In this document: positions 1,335-8,416 of the stretch, one piece after another
How positions within the stretch are numbered: the stretch's first letter is position 1
Layout: each line of letters begins with the position of its first letter
NCBI RefSeq assembly: GCF_008974265.1
Contig: NZ_BKZW01000001.1
Location: forward strand, 2,914,001-2,978,000
DNA length: 64,000 nt
Origin: Dictyobacter vulcani
GTDB lineage: Bacteria; Chloroflexota; Ktedonobacteria; Ktedonobacterales; Ktedonobacteraceae
Reading direction: 5' to 3'
Program-made: the position numbers and the translations under genes
Notes under the pieces: generated by a model
The model's input: only the letters and a program-made list of their open reading frames with translations
Told to the model about the DNA's origin: nothing
Database searches by the model: none

Positions 1335-1916
1335 CTACTCGGCAGCGGCGGCACGTTTGGCCAGATAAAAAGGATGTTTCTTCGTGGACGTAAAGGCGCC
1401 CCAGAGGCCAAGTAGAGCTCCACTTAAAGCCCAGATCAATGTCCAGATAACCAGGCCAAGTATGAGGTTAGAGGCAGACGGACTTGTACTACTCATGCCA
1501 TTAGCAAAGCCTGGTATCATACTGATTAAGGCCGCGCCAAGATAAGAAATACCTCCAACCAGAGCTCCGGCATAGAACCCATACAGACGACTTACTGCAC
1601 GTTTCCCCACGAAAAAACCTGCCACAAACGATAGAATGAGACCTATAACATAACTCAAGCAGCCCAAACCTGTAACATATAAGGCCGTATTGTACGAGAT
1701 CTTATCACCCAGGCGAGCCACTTCTTGAAATGTCGAAGAATTCGCAAATTTGATAGCAACAGAAAGAACGGCAGCCAGTATGCCTCCCACGCATCCAATA
1801 CCCAGAGCTATTGCCAACCCATGTGGAGGTCGAGTCAACGGTTCATAATAGTCCCTATCATCAGGTTGAATAGATTCTGAGTTTGAGGCTGGATAATAAT
1901 TGTCCGAGTTTGACAT
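1335..1916 (-). CDS. Hypothetical four-helix membrane protein
   Basis: No family is recognised. The 193-residue product has a polar, Tyr/Asp/Ser-rich N-terminus of about 30 residues, then four hydrophobic segments near residues 33-55, 75-100, 110-135 and 150-172, rich in Gly and Ala, ending with a short basic tail (TSTKKHPFYLAKR). It is probably an integral inner-membrane protein with both ends in the cytoplasm. It follows the signal peptidase gene by 17 nt on the same strand and is likely co-transcribed. AGAGGGAA lies upstream of the ATG. Confidence 0.75.
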   Translation of the reverse strand: MSNSDNYYPASNSESIQPDDRDYYEPLTRPPHGLAIALGIGCVGGILAAVLSVAIKFANSSTFQEVARLGDKISYNTALYVTGLGCLSYVIGLILSFVAGFFVGKRAVSRLYGFYAGALVGGISYLGAALISMIPGFANGMSSTSPSASNLILGLVIWTLIWALSGALLGLWGAFTSTKKHPFYLAKRAAAAE

Positions 1917-1933: not shown

Positions 1934-2482
1934 TTATTTTTGTTTTGGAATGTCTTTGTAGACATCCGGATAGGTATTGATGGTATGAATAGTATTAAGC
2001 GGCCAGAAAACGAGAGCGGCCTTACCGACCATATAGTCCTTCGGCACAAAGCCCCAGGAACGCGAATCATCGCTGACCGGTCGATTATCCCCCATCACAA
2101 AATACTGGCCCGCCGGAACCTGCCAGCTCTGGCCTTCTTGATTAAAGGGAGCGCTGATATAAGGCTCCGTAAGAAGTTTACCATTGACCGTGACATGTTC
2201 ACGATCGATAGTAACAGTATCCCCGGGCAAGCCAATCACACGCTTGATAAAATCCTGGCGAACATCCTTGGGCCAATGGAAAACAACCACATCACCCCGT
2301 TCCGGTTCCTGGAATACATAGGCCAGCTTATTGACCATCACAAACTCATTTGTGACAAGTCCTGGTTGCATACTAGGTCCATCCACGCGATAGCTTTGAA
2401 CGACAAAGCGTACAACCAGAAAGATCACCAGGGCGAGTGCTATTATTTCGATAATCTCACGGATTAACTGTGAACGTTTCAA
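1934..2482 (-). CDS. lepB: Signal peptidase I (active copy)
   Basis: Membrane-bound leader peptidase that removes Sec/Tat signal peptides on the outer face of the membrane. One N-terminal transmembrane helix (about residues 10-28) precedes box B with the catalytic serine (VDGPSMQP, Ser37), box D with the general-base lysine (FIKRVIGLPGD, Lys80), and box E (GDNRPVSDDSR). The Ser/Lys dyad is complete. The start is TTG 2482, giving LKRSQLIRE read as Met; only a weak AAGAAAG site precedes it. It is the second gene of a tandem pair with the copy at 2586-3194, which is about 80% identical over the core. Confidence 0.95.
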   Translation of the reverse strand: MKRSQLIREIIEIIALALVIFLVVRFVVQSYRVDGPSMQPGLVTNEFVMVNKLAYVFQEPERGDVVVFHWPKDVRQDFIKRVIGLPGDTVTIDREHVTVNGKLLTEPYISAPFNQEGQSWQVPAGQYFVMGDNRPVSDDSRSWGFVPKDYMVGKAALVFWPLNTIHTINTYPDVYKDIPKQK

Positions 2483-2585
2483 CGCAAAAACTTTCTTGTG
2501 CTATGACAAAAATTACATACGTAGGACCAGTCATAGGATATCCAATTGAGGTCCTCTTTTTTTTACTGTTTCTTATTATAGCTGA

Positions 2586-3194
2586 TTAGTGCCTGGCTTT
2601 CACAACTTGCATAGCCTGTTTTCCCGAGATAGTGTGAGCAGCGGTCTTCTTTGGAGCCGGAATTTCTTTATAAGTATCCGAAAATGTATTAATAAAATGA
2701 ATAGTATTAAATGGCCAGAAGACCAGAGCAGCCTTGCCGACAAGGTAATCCTTCGGCACAAAGCCCCAGGAACGCGAATCATCGCTTCTCGGCCGATTAT
2801 CCCCCATCACAAAATACTGGCCAGCGGGAACCTGCCAGCTCTGGCCTTCCTGATTATAGGGAGCGCTGATATAGGTTTCCGTAAGGAGCTTACCATTAAC
2901 CGTGACATGTTCGCGATCAACCGTAACAGTATCTCCAGGCAAGCCAATCACACGTTTAATAAAATCCTGGTGAACGTCCCTGGGCGAATGGAAAACAATT
3001 ACATCACCCCGTTCCGGTTCCTGAAATACATAGGCCAGCTTATTAACCATCACAAACTCATTTGTGACAAGTCCTGGTTGCATACCAGGTTCATCCACGC
3101 GATAGCTTTGAACGACAAAGCGTACAACCAGAAAGATCACCAGAGCCAGAGCCAGTATTTCAACAACCTCACGGATTAATTGTGAACGTTTCAA
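2586..3194 (-). CDS. Signal peptidase I paralogue lacking the catalytic Ser
   Basis: This is a tandem duplicate of the downstream signal peptidase: same N-terminal helix, same box D lysine (FIKRVIGLPGD, Lys80) and the same SDDSRSWGF box E. The catalytic serine is replaced by glycine (VDEPGMQP). The codon is GGT at 3086-3084, where the sister gene has AGT, so one A-to-G change removes the nucleophile. The rest of the frame is intact, and a C-terminal tail of about 20 residues (from APKKTAAH) is unique to this copy. TTG 3194 is preferred as start because GAGAGG lies 7 nt upstream and it matches the sister start; an upstream in-frame start at 3317 would add 41 unrelated residues. It is likely inactive as a classical Ser/Lys peptidase. 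Confidence 0.9.
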   Translation of the reverse strand: MKRSQLIREVVEILALALVIFLVVRFVVQSYRVDEPGMQPGLVTNEFVMVNKLAYVFQEPERGDVIVFHSPRDVHQDFIKRVIGLPGDTVTVDREHVTVNGKLLTETYISAPYNQEGQSWQVPAGQYFVMGDNRPRSDDSRSWGFVPKDYLVGKAALVFWPFNTIHFINTFSDTYKEIPAPKKTAAHTISGKQAMQVVKARH

Positions 3195-3497
3195 CGCGAA
3201 ACCTCTCGTACTTTCTGGCTGGTCTGGATCAGATCCTGACAGCCGAATAATGCCACCAGCTTCAGCTTTTTGGCTATCTTTGTAATAGCTTGATGACCAC
3301 GAGATGCAAAAAAGCAAGTGAGAACCTTTCGATCTGTGGCACTCTTAAATCGATTGTGCTTGGTTCTGGAGCAGATAACAAGCTCATGGGTATATAGTAC
3401 TACTTCATTGGAACGAGCACAAAGGAGTAGCGAAGTCGAGAACGAAGGGCAAGAAAAAGCCATGAGCAATCAATTCAGCTATTATTGTAACTGCAGT
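3195..3497. other. Intergenic region, no gene seen
   Basis: About 300 bp between the glycosyltransferase 3' end and the signal peptidase paralogue, both on the minus strand. Only short unsupported reading frames are present. It presumably holds the promoter of the signal peptidase operon, but no clear -35/-10 pair was found. Confidence 0.4.
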
Positions 3498-5003
3498 TTA
3501 TAACTTTTTCTTTGAGAGGGAGGCAAGAAGCGCCTGATAGTTTTCAAGTAGGAGTAAAGCATAGTTGCGCCAGCCATAACGATGATCCAGCACTGTCGCC
3601 TCTTTTTCAGTATGTTTGAACACGCGCTTTGGGGCCAGCAAGAGAGCCTGAACAAGAGAAGAATGACTGTCAGGTGTGTAGAGAATACCTGCATGTGTCG
3701 GAAGAAGACCATGAAAGCGAGGTAAATTAGGAGAGATGACGACCCGCTCATACGAATAAAAAAGCATAGCTATAGCTGGTTCGCCAGCGGCCTTGACTTT
3801 ACAGTAAGGCATGACCACGGCATCGCAAGCGGTCACATAGATCGGTAGATCTTCTGGCCGATATTCAAGAAAGATATGTAATGCGGTATTTAAAGCCGCC
3901 CGCTTTACAATATGAGACGCCTCTTTTTTGTCCCGAGGGATTCCGACCAGGAGCAACTGGGGAGATAGAGACGCTGTCGCGGAAGACTTCAGGAGGAGTG
4001 CACGCATCTCAGAAAAAGCCTCAATGCATTGCAATACTTCGCGTTGCGTATGCATATGCATCAGGCAGAGATAGACATAATCGGTTCCTGTGGGTATACC
4101 AAGCTGGATTTGTGCCAGCGACTTACCAATAGTTGGAGGTAAAACCGCCCGTAGTCCCGGATATGCCAGAAAACACGAACGCTTCCGCCATGGATATTGT
4201 TGATAGAACTGTTCTGGCAGGCGTGTCGAAGTATACACAGTATGGCTGCAAGCAAAAATTTTACGCTCAAAAGCACGTCTGGATGCATGTGGTAGCGAGC
4301 GCACATTATGCCACCAGCCGCCAGTATCTGTACTGACTACAGCCAGTCCCAGTCGTTGAGCCAGCCAGAGCTTAAACAACAGATGTTGCCGTTGCCAATA
4401 ATTCAGCTCAAAAGCTCCGGGTCGATAAAAATGCACAATACCAATTGCCGCCTCTGAGTGGGCTCGATGGCGCCAGAGCCAGGAGAAAGGGATATCCGCA
4501 ACACTGGTATTACAATACACTCCCTGTTTTAATAAAGCCTGCACCTGCCATTCCGCATCCTGATCCTGTGCCTGAACAACCAGCACAAATGGACTATTAG
4601 CCAGCCTGGGTGCATGATTGCTCAACATCAATTGTTGTCGGATGCGACCCCAGATATGTGCCTGCTCCATAGCCGCTACAAGTCGCTCGCTGGTCGGTCT
4701 ATGGGCCAGTGAGAGTAACAGACGATGAATAAATAGCAGCGAGAGCAGTTCTCGTATCTCTGGAAGAAGAGAGCGCACCGTTTGCAACAAAGTGCCGCCC
4801 GTCACCTGCTGATAGCGTTCAATATCCGCATACTCAGCCAATATCTCCGAGCGTCCTTGCCAGTAAGCGCGGCCGACCAGGAAAGGGCGCGCCAGGCGTG
4901 CGGCCGAAACTCGATGCGCAACCTGTGCGCCCGGATCATACCAGACAGTATAATGTTGCTGCCGCAAGCGTCGACAAAGATCCAGTGCCTCAACATTTAT
5001 GGG
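3498..5003 (-). CDS. Glycosyltransferase, C-terminal GT4-like part (frameshifted from upstream gene)
   Basis: This is the second half of a two-domain glycosyltransferase. It begins with the tail of a GT2 domain (VEALDLCRRLRQ ... YDPGAQVAHRV ... GRAYWQGRS), which belongs directly after the upstream gene. It continues with a GT-B/GT4-like nucleotide-sugar domain at about residues 270-480, seen in QLLLVGIP, ALHIFLEYRPEDLPIYVTACDAVVMPY and AGEPAIAMLFYSYERVVISPN. The reading frame changes at a four-base C run (G run at 5001-5004 on the plus strand); one extra base there joins the halves smoothly. No plausible independent start exists: TTG 4967 has no ribosome site and lies mid-domain. Confidence 0.75.
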   Translation of the reverse strand, partial: PINVEALDLCRRLRQQHYTVWYDPGAQVAHRVSAARLARPFLVGRAYWQGRSEILAEYADIERYQQVTGGTLLQTVRSLLPEIRELLSLLFIHRLLLSLAHRPTSERLVAAMEQAHIWGRIRQQLMLSNHAPRLANSPFVLVVQAQDQDAEWQVQALLKQGVYCNTSVADIPFSWLWRHRAHSEAAIGIVHFYRPGAFELNYWQRQHLLFKLWLAQRLGLAVVSTDTGGWWHNVRSLPHASRRAFERKIFACSHTVYTSTRLPEQFYQQYPWRKRSCFLAYPGLRAVLPPTIGKSLAQIQLGIPTGTDYVYLCLMHMHTQREVLQCIEAFSEMRALLLKSSATASLSPQLLLVGIPRDKKEASHIVKRAALNTALHIFLEYRPEDLPIYVTACDAVVMPYCKVKAAGEPAIAMLFYSYERVVISPNLPRFHGLLPTHAGILYTPDSHSSLVQALLLAPKRVFKHTEKEATVLDHRYGWRNYALLLLENYQALLASLSKKKL

Positions 5004-5707
5004 GAATGTAAGCGTTTGGTCAGGAAAGGAGAGAAGCCGCCAACCTGTTGCAAGACCTGTCGCTTAAGCGAAAAACAGCTATTGCTAAAGCTCAGATCAT
5101 CCGGCAACTGTGTACGCGAATGAAACGGCACATAATAGCCAAAGGTCGGCAGCATATCATAGGTTAACCAGTAAGGTTTATAGGACTCCCAATGAAGATT
5201 CACACAGCCCCCAACCGCATCGGCCTGTGTCTCCTCATACGTCGCCAGCAAGCGTTCCAGGAAATACGGATCGACCAGCACATCATCATCCAAAAAGACC
5301 AGAATCTCGCCCGACGAGGATGTTATGCCAGTATTGCGTGCATAGGCCAGTCCATTACGTTCTTCCAACAAACAATGAATGCTCCATCGTTCTTCAAGCG
5401 AGCGCTGATAGACAGTATTCGCACTCAAATATGTCTGGATAGCATTAAAAGTCCCATCGGAAGAACCATTATCAACCACAATTACCTCAAAATATTGAGC
5501 AGGGAGCGACTGACGACGCAGGCTTGCCAGAGCAGCCAGAACCAGATTACGGCGATTATAGGTACAGATAATCACACTGAAGCGAAATGTGGTTCGTGCC
5601 TGCTGAGCGACCTCAGATTGTGCTTTTGCGCCAGTACGAAAAGCTCCGGTAGATCTTGTACGGATAGAAATAGGACCGGTATGTGAGAATGAATCGCGGA
5701 TACTCAT
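4997..5707 (-). CDS. Family 2 glycosyltransferase, N-terminal part (frameshifted)
   Basis: GT-A fold sugar transferase for surface polysaccharide or glycolipid assembly. Visible motifs are FSVIICTYNRRNLVLAAL at about residues 44-60, VVDNGSSDGTF, the diagnostic EILVFLDDDVLVDP containing the metal-binding DDD, and NSCFSLKRQVLQQVGGFSPF near the acceptor end. The frame stops abruptly after RLHSP, where related proteins continue into an E-x-x-L-C-R-R-L-R segment found at the start of the next gene. The ATG overlaps the flippase stop by 4 nt (ATGA), showing translational coupling. Substrate unknown. Confidence 0.85.
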   Translation of the reverse strand: MSIRDSFSHTGPISIRTRSTGAFRTGAKAQSEVAQQARTTFRFSVIICTYNRRNLVLAALASLRRQSLPAQYFEVIVVDNGSSDGTFNAIQTYLSANTVYQRSLEERWSIHCLLEERNGLAYARNTGITSSSGEILVFLDDDVLVDPYFLERLLATYEETQADAVGGCVNLHWESYKPYWLTYDMLPTFGYYVPFHSRTQLPDDLSFSNSCFSLKRQVLQQVGGFSPFLTKRLHSP

Positions 5708-7062
5708 CTTTCCTCCCTGTTACACTGGAGTAATGTTTCATGTTGCAGCAGGAGTTTTTTGCAGAGCATAATCGAAACGACAGCAGAAATAATCTGAGCA
5801 AGCGTACTGGCAAGAGCAGCCCCAACCATTCCCCAGAAAAAGACTAGAGGAAGAGCCAGCAAAATTTTCAGGCAGGCCACCCCAAGATTAAATTCCTGCT
5901 GGATGCGCTGAATACGCTGGATATCCTGATATTGTTGACTGGCCATATGAGTGAGTCCGACCGTCGCAATACTGCCAAAGACGGCCGCGATAAGCAGAAT
6001 ACGTAAAGGCTTCACCATAGGAAGATAAGCGATACCTAGAAAAAACGTCAGAATACCAGGACAGAGCACGATCATCAGCAGGCAGATCGGGACAGCCAGA
6101 AAAATAATGTAGCACGAGGTCTTAACAAACGCATCGTATTGATTGAGGTAGCGATGGCGAGGAAGATAACGCACCACCACAGGAAAAATCCATTGAGAAA
6201 AGAGCGACGGTGCCAGACCAATCAGCCTTGTACTGATAATTGCACTCAAGGCATAAAATCCCAGGTACTCAGAATTGTACCAGCAAGCCAGTAGCAGTAA
6301 CTCACTACGCTGCCAGACAATTGCATCGAGTGCAAAATGCAAACGCGAGAGCTGCATATTATGCACCAGACGCTCCTTAAGGAAAATGCCCGGTGCCAGA
6401 GCCTGTTTTAATGGGAGAAGATGCATCACACAGATCATTGAAAGTACAAGTGTGATCATATTAGAAAGCGCGCAGGATAAAATAAACGCTTCAATCGGTG
6501 TCCTGCTTATCTGAGTCGAGATAAGAGTAAAGAGCAACGTCAATAAATGGCCAAACAGATTAAGCATAATCAGCAGATCAGAGCGCCGCAGACTGCGTAG
6601 AGTAATGCCAGCCACGCTACTCAAAAGCAAAGGCAGGGTTGCCAGGCTCGACAGGAGCAGGAGTCCTGGTGTGAAATCATGAAAAATACGAGCCAGTACA
6701 AAAGAAAGAAGCAGATAGACCAGGCAATACCATAGAATACTCCAGTGTTGCCGACGCCAGAGAAAATAAAAAATGCCTGCCATCAAGCGTGGCGACTCGC
6801 GACTCTGTGTCGCAGCAATCTGGCGGCTCGCCAGGGTAGACATACCGGTTCCCAGGACTGGAATTGTGACCGTAGCCAACCACTGGGCAAACAGATAACT
6901 ACCAAACATATGCGGCCCCAGGATATGGGCAATCATAATATAAATGCTTACATTAATCAGTACAGAGCCAGCCCGGGCACTATTTGGCCAGACGCGTACA
7001 TAATTTCGATTCTTAGTAGAATCAGAATGATGCCCAATAATTATACGGGATTGTGCCACCAC
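5704..7062 (-). CDS. Polysaccharide flippase (MOP/Wzx-like)
   Basis: Integral membrane transporter of the MOP superfamily, most like O-antigen/teichoic-acid flippases that move lipid-linked oligosaccharides across the membrane. The 452-residue protein has about 12 hydrophobic segments. Early ones include GSVLINVSIYIMIAHILGPHMFGSY, where the ARILGPxxFG-like signature of the family is recognisable. The C-terminus ends in a short polar tail. It overlaps the downstream glycosyltransferase by 4 nt, so flippase and transferase are made from one message and probably serve one glycan. The extra polar N-terminal 25 residues may mean the true start is internal. Confidence 0.85.
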   Translation of the reverse strand: MVAQSRIIIGHHSDSTKNRNYVRVWPNSARAGSVLINVSIYIMIAHILGPHMFGSYLFAQWLATVTIPVLGTGMSTLASRQIAATQSRESPRLMAGIFYFLWRRQHWSILWYCLVYLLLSFVLARIFHDFTPGLLLLSSLATLPLLLSSVAGITLRSLRRSDLLIMLNLFGHLLTLLFTLISTQISRTPIEAFILSCALSNMITLVLSMICVMHLLPLKQALAPGIFLKERLVHNMQLSRLHFALDAIVWQRSELLLLACWYNSEYLGFYALSAIISTRLIGLAPSLFSQWIFPVVVRYLPRHRYLNQYDAFVKTSCYIIFLAVPICLLMIVLCPGILTFFLGIAYLPMVKPLRILLIAAVFGSIATVGLTHMASQQYQDIQRIQRIQQEFNLGVACLKILLALPLVFFWGMVGAALASTLAQIISAVVSIMLCKKLLLQHETLLQCNREER

Positions 7063-7124: not shown

Positions 7125-7433
7125 CTAGAAAATGGTCTCTGTATTAAGAAACAAAGCAAAGTCAGGATCCAGTGTGGTTATTTCAGCATCAAATTCATCA
7201 GTATCAGCAGAAGGAACAGCCTGGAATAGAAATGTTTCCTGGCTTACTGTGTGTTTGAGGACACGGGTAGCCAGTTCAACCAGAATATCAGGAGATGTAA
7301 AAAGCAGTCCAGGCGTATGAGGATTGAGGGCAGTGAGCGACTGCTGTTGCTTTGCTAACCGAAAAACATTCTCTGATGGAACCATTGCCAGCTCAGGATT
7401 CAAAGGAGCCAGCCAATCAATTGCATAATCCAT
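7125..7433 (-). CDS. Hypothetical protein
   Basis: Not recognised. The product of about 102 residues is acidic and soluble, with no transmembrane segment, and carries LNPELAMVPSENVFRLAKQQQ followed by a helical central part (DILVELATRVLKHTVSQETFLFQ). ATG 7433 is chosen because GGAGG lies about 10 nt upstream. It sits upstream of the flippase on the same strand, separated by 62 nt, and may belong to the same unit. Confidence 0.55.
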   Translation of the reverse strand: MDYAIDWLAPLNPELAMVPSENVFRLAKQQQSLTALNPHTPGLLFTSPDILVELATRVLKHTVSQETFLFQAVPSADTDEFDAEITTLDPDFALFLNTETIF

Positions 7434-7595
7434 GTGTACCAGACCTCCACCTCTTCTACTTTCACCACCGGATACAAGCATAATTGTACCATATTGTATC
7501 ATGATATGTAATAGAAAGCAGTGTCTGAGGTACTGGATTGGTTATAAGGCTGTTAATATTGGGGAGTTGGTGTTAAGAAGTCAGTGAAATAATAA

Positions 7596-7665
7596 GGAAG
7601 AGGCGGTGCATCGACATTGCGCGTGCAAAAGAAATAAGATGCGCAATGTTCACCGCTCTCTTCTT
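7596..7665 (-). terminator. Terminator hairpin of sigma factor gene
   Basis: On the minus strand GAGCGGTG.ACATTGCGC pairs with GCGCAATGT..CACCGCC across a loop rich in T, followed by CTCTTCCTTATT. It lies 26 nt after the sigma factor stop. Confidence 0.6.
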
Positions 7666-7690
7666 TGCGTATATAAGTCTGTACTTATCA

Positions 7691-8416
7691 TCAGGCAGCC
7701 GACGGCACAAGGCCAATAACAACCCGGGTGGAAACCTCTTCATCATCCATATTAGCTGTGCGCAATATGCGTCTGAGATTTGACAGGGCAGCCTGGATAC
7801 GTTTCTTTAACGTATTCTCTGAAGTTTGGAGTGTCTGAGACATTTCTGGTAATGTCATGCCATTGTAGTAATGAAGAACAATCACCACTCGCTGCTTTAC
7901 CGGTAAATTCTCAATAGCCCTGGCCAGATCCCAATCGCGTTCCATACGCCCCTTAAAATCATCTGCCGCCTGAGCCATCATATCGGTCTCTTGTTCGGAT
8001 AAAGCCTGACGCATAAAAGCAGTTGTACGTGCCACTCGACGTTTAAAACTGATACACTGATTGACCACAATACGCATCAGCCATGGACGAAGTGCTCCTG
8101 CTTTGCGCAGATCACTCAGATGATGCCAGGCCTGAATAAGAGCATCTTGCACCACATCCTCGGCAATATCGCGGTCACCGACAATCATCGATGCAGTTCG
8201 CAACATAAGAGTGCTATATTGATCAACGATCTCTCCAAATGCCGCGTGGTCGCCCTGAATGGCCCGCGTTACTAATAATTCCTGCTCTAAAACCTCAGCA
8301 TTATCCTGCGTTTCATCATTATTTTGTGAAGTGGCTTCAGTATTTATATCTGACACCTCTGTACTCTCATCAAGTACCAAGATGGTTTCTTGAGCCTGGG
8401 CTGTGGCTGTAGCCAT
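7691..8416 (-). CDS. ECF-type RNA polymerase sigma factor
   Basis: Sigma-70 family, extracytoplasmic-function class. After an acidic, low-complexity N-terminal extension of about 45 residues come region 2 (ITRAIQGDHAAFGEIVDQYS ... GDRDIAEDVVQDALIQAWHHL ... RPWLMRIVVNQCISFKRR) and region 4 (IENLPVKQRVVIVLHYYNGMTLPEMSQTLQ and KKRIQAALSNLRRIL, a helix-turn-helix). The start is ATG 8416, with AGGAGG 9 nt upstream; the longer frame from 8518 is unsupported. No anti-sigma gene lies next to it. The acidic extension and the C-terminal tail of about 20 residues are unusual and could be where regulation acts. Confidence 0.9.
   Translation of the reverse strand: MATATAQAQETILVLDESTEVSDINTEATSQNNDETQDNAEVLEQELLVTRAIQGDHAAFGEIVDQYSTLMLRTASMIVGDRDIAEDVVQDALIQAWHHLSDLRKAGALRPWLMRIVVNQCISFKRRVARTTAFMRQALSEQETDMMAQAADDFKGRMERDWDLARAIENLPVKQRVVIVLHYYNGMTLPEMSQTLQTSENTLKKRIQAALSNLRRILRTANMDDEEVSTRVVIGLVPSAA

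Follow-up and report, generated by a model that had tools for sequence, protein, structure and literature searches.

We identified two adjacent lepB genes on the minus strand of the Dictyobacter vulcani window (the whole stretch of 64,000 nucleotides that was analyzed). The upstream gene, copy B, encodes a type I signal peptidase (SPase I) paralogue that lacks the catalytic serine and is almost certainly non-catalytic. Dead LepB copies are maintained by purifying selection in related genomes of the order Ktedonobacterales, which makes a non-catalytic role for copy B credible. We put the chance that copy B has been retained and recruited as a non-catalytic partner at about even, and it is nearly as likely that the gene is in early decay.

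Table 1. Features of the tandem lepB locus of D. vulcani (positions in the window)
Feature	Positions	Strand	Description
Uncharacterised membrane protein gene	1335..1916	-	Directly downstream of lepB; locus conserved across the family
Copy A	1934..2482	-	LepB, presumed active; Ser37-Lys80 dyad intact and no change at the 42 conserved positions
Copy A promoter	2575..2603	-	GTGAAA-17-TATAAT; conserved upstream of lepB in four relatives
Copy B	2586..3194	-	LepB (type I signal peptidase fold) paralogue, predicted non-catalytic; 202 aa, TTG start
Copy B C-terminal tail	2589..2648	-	Residues 183-202; runs into the copy A promoter region
Copy B Lys80 codon	2955..2957	-	AAA; general-base lysine, retained (sequence and alignment)
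Codons 18-49 of copy B	3048..3143 (copy A: 2336-2431)	-	Zero synonymous differences from copy A; probable gene-conversion tract that includes the Ser box
Altered Ser box of copy B	3084..3092	-	Codons 35-37, GAA CCT GGT (Glu-Pro-Gly) replacing Gly-Pro-Ser
Copy B ribosome-binding site	3202..3207	-	GAGAGG; conserved with relatives (alignment)
Degraded counterpart of the lepB promoter	3282..3310	-	TTTGCA-17-TATTAC, upstream of copy B (upstream-region alignment)

A preliminary description of this DNA had recognized the pair as duplicated LepB genes and had delimited copy B, and both points are borne out. The two copies are 87% identical and group together in both of our trees, and the TTG start of copy B (3194-3192) is common to the four same-genus relatives. 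These relatives (Dictyobacter arantiisoli, D. aurantiacus, D. kobayashii and strain brp13) each have one lepB, with both Ser and Lys, at the orthologous locus, flanked on one side by a membrane-protein gene (4/4) and on the other by a glycosyltransferase gene (3/4). Copy B was seen in one genome only, that of D. vulcani (7.4 Mb). A fresh duplication was rejected based on a dS of about 0.44 between the copies (dN 0.069). We also rejected the possibility that copy B is an orthologue of an older dead clade present in the genus, as it groups with copy A. The membrane protein gene downstream of the pair has no Pfam match; it tracks lepB across the family and is likely an operon partner. Upstream of copy B, the glycosyltransferase gene (3498-5707, minus strand) carries a frameshift near 4997 that splits it, compared with the single 740-aa gene of D. 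aurantiacus, and is either a true pseudogene or the product of an assembly indel.

The loss of the nucleophile is evident from the Ser box. At codon 37 copy B has GGT (Gly, 3086-3084) and copy A has AGT (Ser, 2374-2372), exactly as had been noted. The one-base change from Ser to Gly is accompanied by a second missense change that the preliminary description did not include, GGA to GAA (Gly35Glu, 3092-3090), two codons earlier. Together they convert VDGPSMQP to VDEPGMQP. Both Gly35 and Ser37 are invariant in seven outgroup orthologues, and both changes map to the copy B branch. The altered box contains no Ser, Thr or Cys, and a replacement nucleophile within it was therefore rejected.

The remainder of the protein is well conserved. 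We defined a set of 42 positions, each kept in at least 90% of 122 dyad-bearing (active) homologues from the order. Copy B keeps 40 of these, the only departures being Ser37 and the box glycine, and the GDN box is unchanged; the earlier observation that the lysine and all other boxes are kept thus holds. Among the features of an active S26 type I signal peptidase, copy B has the family homology (172.8 bits against PF10502 in a Pfam profile search, 161.5 bits against TIGR02227) and the general-base lysine, and has Gly37 in place of the SM-box catalytic serine. In an AF2 model the SPase fold is kept, and a Foldseek comparison with the PDB matches it to both SPase I and SipA, with a TMt of 0.81 to the non-catalytic SipA. 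By sequence and structural model, copy B thus combines the SPase fold with an incomplete Ser-Lys dyad, as SpsA and SipA do. From the chemistry of the dyad we infer that copy B is unable to cleave; its expression, its substrate binding and any partner role are putative.

The regulatory sequences of the two copies differ. The lepB upstream motif common to the relatives is GTGAAA-17/18-TATAAT with AATC(A/G)GC preceding the -10 box; it is intact in copy A (2603-2575) and sits further upstream in brp13. The corresponding promoter of copy B is degraded, and the leader, including the ribosome-binding site, aligns well with those of relatives. Copy B might still be transcribed at a low level or through read-through from upstream. 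The copy A promoter supplies the final codons of copy B: GTG AAA GCC AGG CAC TAA is its -35 box and spacer, and the tail is therefore a read-through into the promoter and leader of copy A. It is predicted to be disordered (pLDDT below 50 in the AF2 model). A C-terminal tail of about 20 residues does exist, as had been proposed; it consists of translated DNA from that promoter and leader, and we rejected a new functional domain.

The dN/dS comparison with relatives that the preliminary description had suggested was extended by codon-model fits, using a home-made GY94-type likelihood and not PAML. The estimate of omega for copy B is 0.27 without a clock and 0.20 when both copies are given the same synonymous age, compared with a background of 0.07; the protein has evolved about three times faster than its relatives. 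Equality with the background is rejected (2dlnL about 6-7), and omega = 1 is excluded only under the clock, where it is worse by 15 lnL (2dlnL 1.8 without it). The synonymous differences between A and B are unevenly distributed, with none in codons 18-49 and 34 in the other 150 codons, whereas other species pairs show 12-15 in codons 18-49. A run-length shuffle of the differences gives p = 0.02 for this tract. The pattern suggests recent gene conversion between the copies. Because the Ser box lies within the tract, the serine was probably lost late, in agreement with the earlier remark that the change could be recent. If so, most of the history of constraint on copy B is that of an active enzyme.

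Dead copies of lepB are widespread in the order. We scored Ser, Lys and the GDN-box Gly in 150 S26 proteins from 47 genomes, a sample of the S26 genes of these genomes. Ser and/or Lys are missing in 28 of the proteins, spread over 26 genomes. We estimate that these represent roughly six to eight separate origins, some deep nodes of the trees being weak. One group in family f2 (three genomes) has Lys replaced by Gln and the GDN Gly by Asn, and a second in family f4 (nine genomes) has Lys replaced by Arg or Gly. A third includes all five Dictyobacter-genus genomes, Ktedonosporobacter rubrisoli and one MAG, and carries an NDN box (bootstrap 84 in one tree, local support 0.95 in the other). A fourth is found in Ktedonobacter spp. 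and Thermosporothrix, and there are single cases in genomes G009, G010 and G011 in addition to copy B. In G010, which belongs to another genus and has other dyad-bearing S26 genes, the gene at the orthologous lepB locus (L177, about 7418-7873) has Thr for Ser and Asp for the GDN Gly and keeps the Lys.

The dead copies share a pattern of losses. The Ser-box Gly is lost in 24 of the 28 and is present in 115 of the 122 active copies, and a [D/E]-x-G-M sequence arose three times, in copy B, G009 and Ktedonosporobacter. The GDN Gly is lost in 18 of 25 copies without Lys compared with 1 of 125 with it, which fits the structural reason given for SipA, in which this glycine makes room for the lysine (PMC4049620). 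Outside the order, the dyad is present in 58/58 and 37/38 Chloroflexota homologues in two sets that may overlap, the exception having a Cys. The dyad is thus missing in 1 of 96 outside compared with 28 of 150 inside (Fisher's p = 7e-6, ignoring relatedness). The exception with Cys for the catalytic Ser (L270, genome G149) keeps the Lys.

Among the dead clades, those amenable to testing are under purifying selection comparable to that on active copies. In the Dictyobacter group omega is 0.09 (active copies: 0.073), and fixing omega at 1 costs 164 lnL. Pairwise values for the f2, f4 and Ktedonobacter groups range from 0.03 to 0.17, with omega = 1 rejected in each, although several pairs are synonymously saturated. 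The dead copy is often close to an active one. In the sister families f2 and f4, 10 of the 12 genomes with a dead copy have it immediately downstream of an active one on the same strand, at a distance of tens of bases to about 150 nt; the other two have no active copy within the roughly 1 kb inspected. Ktedonobacter and Thermosporothrix have theirs at the locus of the D. vulcani pair, one gene downstream of the active copy. Every dead copy tested scores well above the cut-off of TIGR02227, the NCBI signal peptidase I equivalog model, and annotation by that model therefore hides them.

The dead gene of the Dictyobacter genus is syntenic in 5/5 genomes, where it adjoins two adjacent hemE (uroporphyrinogen decarboxylase) genes (L176:6196-7269 and 4985-6184). 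The first hemE has the motif MRQAGH and the second MRQAGR. This dead lepB also adjoins a gene for a protein kinase that carries a Rieske domain at its C terminus (Pfam Pkinase and Rieske; L176:8290-10065). In D. kobayashii (L100:6823-9095) both hemE genes are apparently broken into overlapping frames, suggesting assembly indel errors.

A few Gram-positive genera are known to have signal peptidase homologues that are non-catalytic; to our knowledge, a role has been defined only for SipA. In Staphylococcus aureus, spsA presumably adjoins spsB, much as copy B adjoins copy A. No paper linking Ktedonobacter, Dictyobacter or Ktedonobacteria to inactive signal peptidases was found in a search that left most subscription journals outside its reach.

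The S. aureus pair resembles copies B and A in consisting of two SPase I homologues, one deficient in the dyad and the other, SpsB, the working Ser-Lys enzyme; SpsA is dispensable (PMC12445088). However, SpsA lacks both catalytic residues and copy B lacks only the Ser, and the two are expected to be of independent origin. SipA (LepA) of Streptococcus pyogenes (4n31) keeps the SPase fold and peptide groove, has the dyad replaced (Ser by Asp, Lys by Gly) and is required for pilus polymerisation (PMC4049620). Its invariant Gly272 is replaced by Asn (PMC4049620), similar to the NDN box seen in the dead clade of Dictyobacter. SipA is encoded in a pilus cluster with a sortase, whereas copy B and the Ktedonobacterial dead copies examined are not, and these are much closer in sequence to active SPases than to SipA. 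Membership of copy B in the SipA pilus-assembly family was rejected, as the match to SipA is much weaker than that to active SPases and the neighbours encode glycosyltransferases, a PPIase and the membrane protein. Copy B shares the fold, the membrane anchor and all boxes except the Ser box with housekeeping enzymes such as E. coli LepB and S. aureus SpsB, and differs from them in the absence of the nucleophile.

We propose that tandem duplication of the housekeeping lepB in the D. vulcani lineage gave rise to both copies, with copy A retaining the ancestral promoter and the dyad as the working enzyme. Copy B would have been kept for a long period, probably partly homogenised with copy A by gene conversion, before losing the nucleophile and the nearby glycine. 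What remains is predicted to be anchored in the membrane and to have an intact signal-peptide groove. Any function would most likely be a non-catalytic one, holding preproteins or binding and modulating copy A, in line with the putative role of the conserved dead copies elsewhere in the order. Copy B has lost exactly those catalysis-specific residues, the Ser and the box Gly, that independent dead lineages lose, which favors a retained non-catalytic protein. However, it still has Lys80 and the GDN Gly, unlike most established dead copies. A narrower form of this proposal, in which copy B is a regulatory or dominant-negative decoy that binds the preproteins of copy A uncut and so sets the rate of processing, is consistent with the close similarity and linkage of the two genes and with the intact conserved groove positions. 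We consider it unlikely, as dead copies elsewhere lie downstream of the active gene and not upstream.

The main competing explanation, only slightly less probable than retention, is that copy B is a duplicate in early decay, with promoter and nucleophile gone and a frame still open only because little time has elapsed; it would be idle or contribute a little inert protein. The degraded promoter, the raised omega and the restriction of copy B to one species favor decay, as do the probably late loss of Ser and the overlap of the tail with the copy A promoter. An open frame had earlier been taken to indicate a non-catalytic role rather than a fresh pseudogene; given the read-through tail and these other features, it is weak evidence of function. 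That part of the argument is weaker than first put, and the role draws its credibility from the precedent of relatives that keep dead copies under purifying selection. This precedent counts against decay, as do the kept ribosome-binding site, an omega below 1 under the clock, and the confinement of losses at conserved positions to those specific to catalysis. An assembly or sequencing error is a very improbable source of the Ser-to-Gly change. Only a single assembly is available and the frameshift in the neighboring glycosyltransferase gene could be an indel error, but a miscall would have to account for two separate substitutions in one box that both match the pattern of other dead copies.

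The order-wide context is more interesting than copy B itself. Tentatively, and with somewhat less than even confidence, we suggest that the non-catalytic LepBs of Ktedonobacterales are standing partners of signal peptidase that arose through duplication and dyad loss on about six or more occasions, often adjoining an active copy, and that copy B is the youngest of them, caught in mid-recruitment. The repeated origins and strong constraint of these proteins, often beside the active enzyme, provide a natural series that runs from copy B, which has only just lost its Ser, to copies without Ser, Lys and the supporting glycine. Through comparison along this series, the role of a signal peptidase that does not cut becomes testable.
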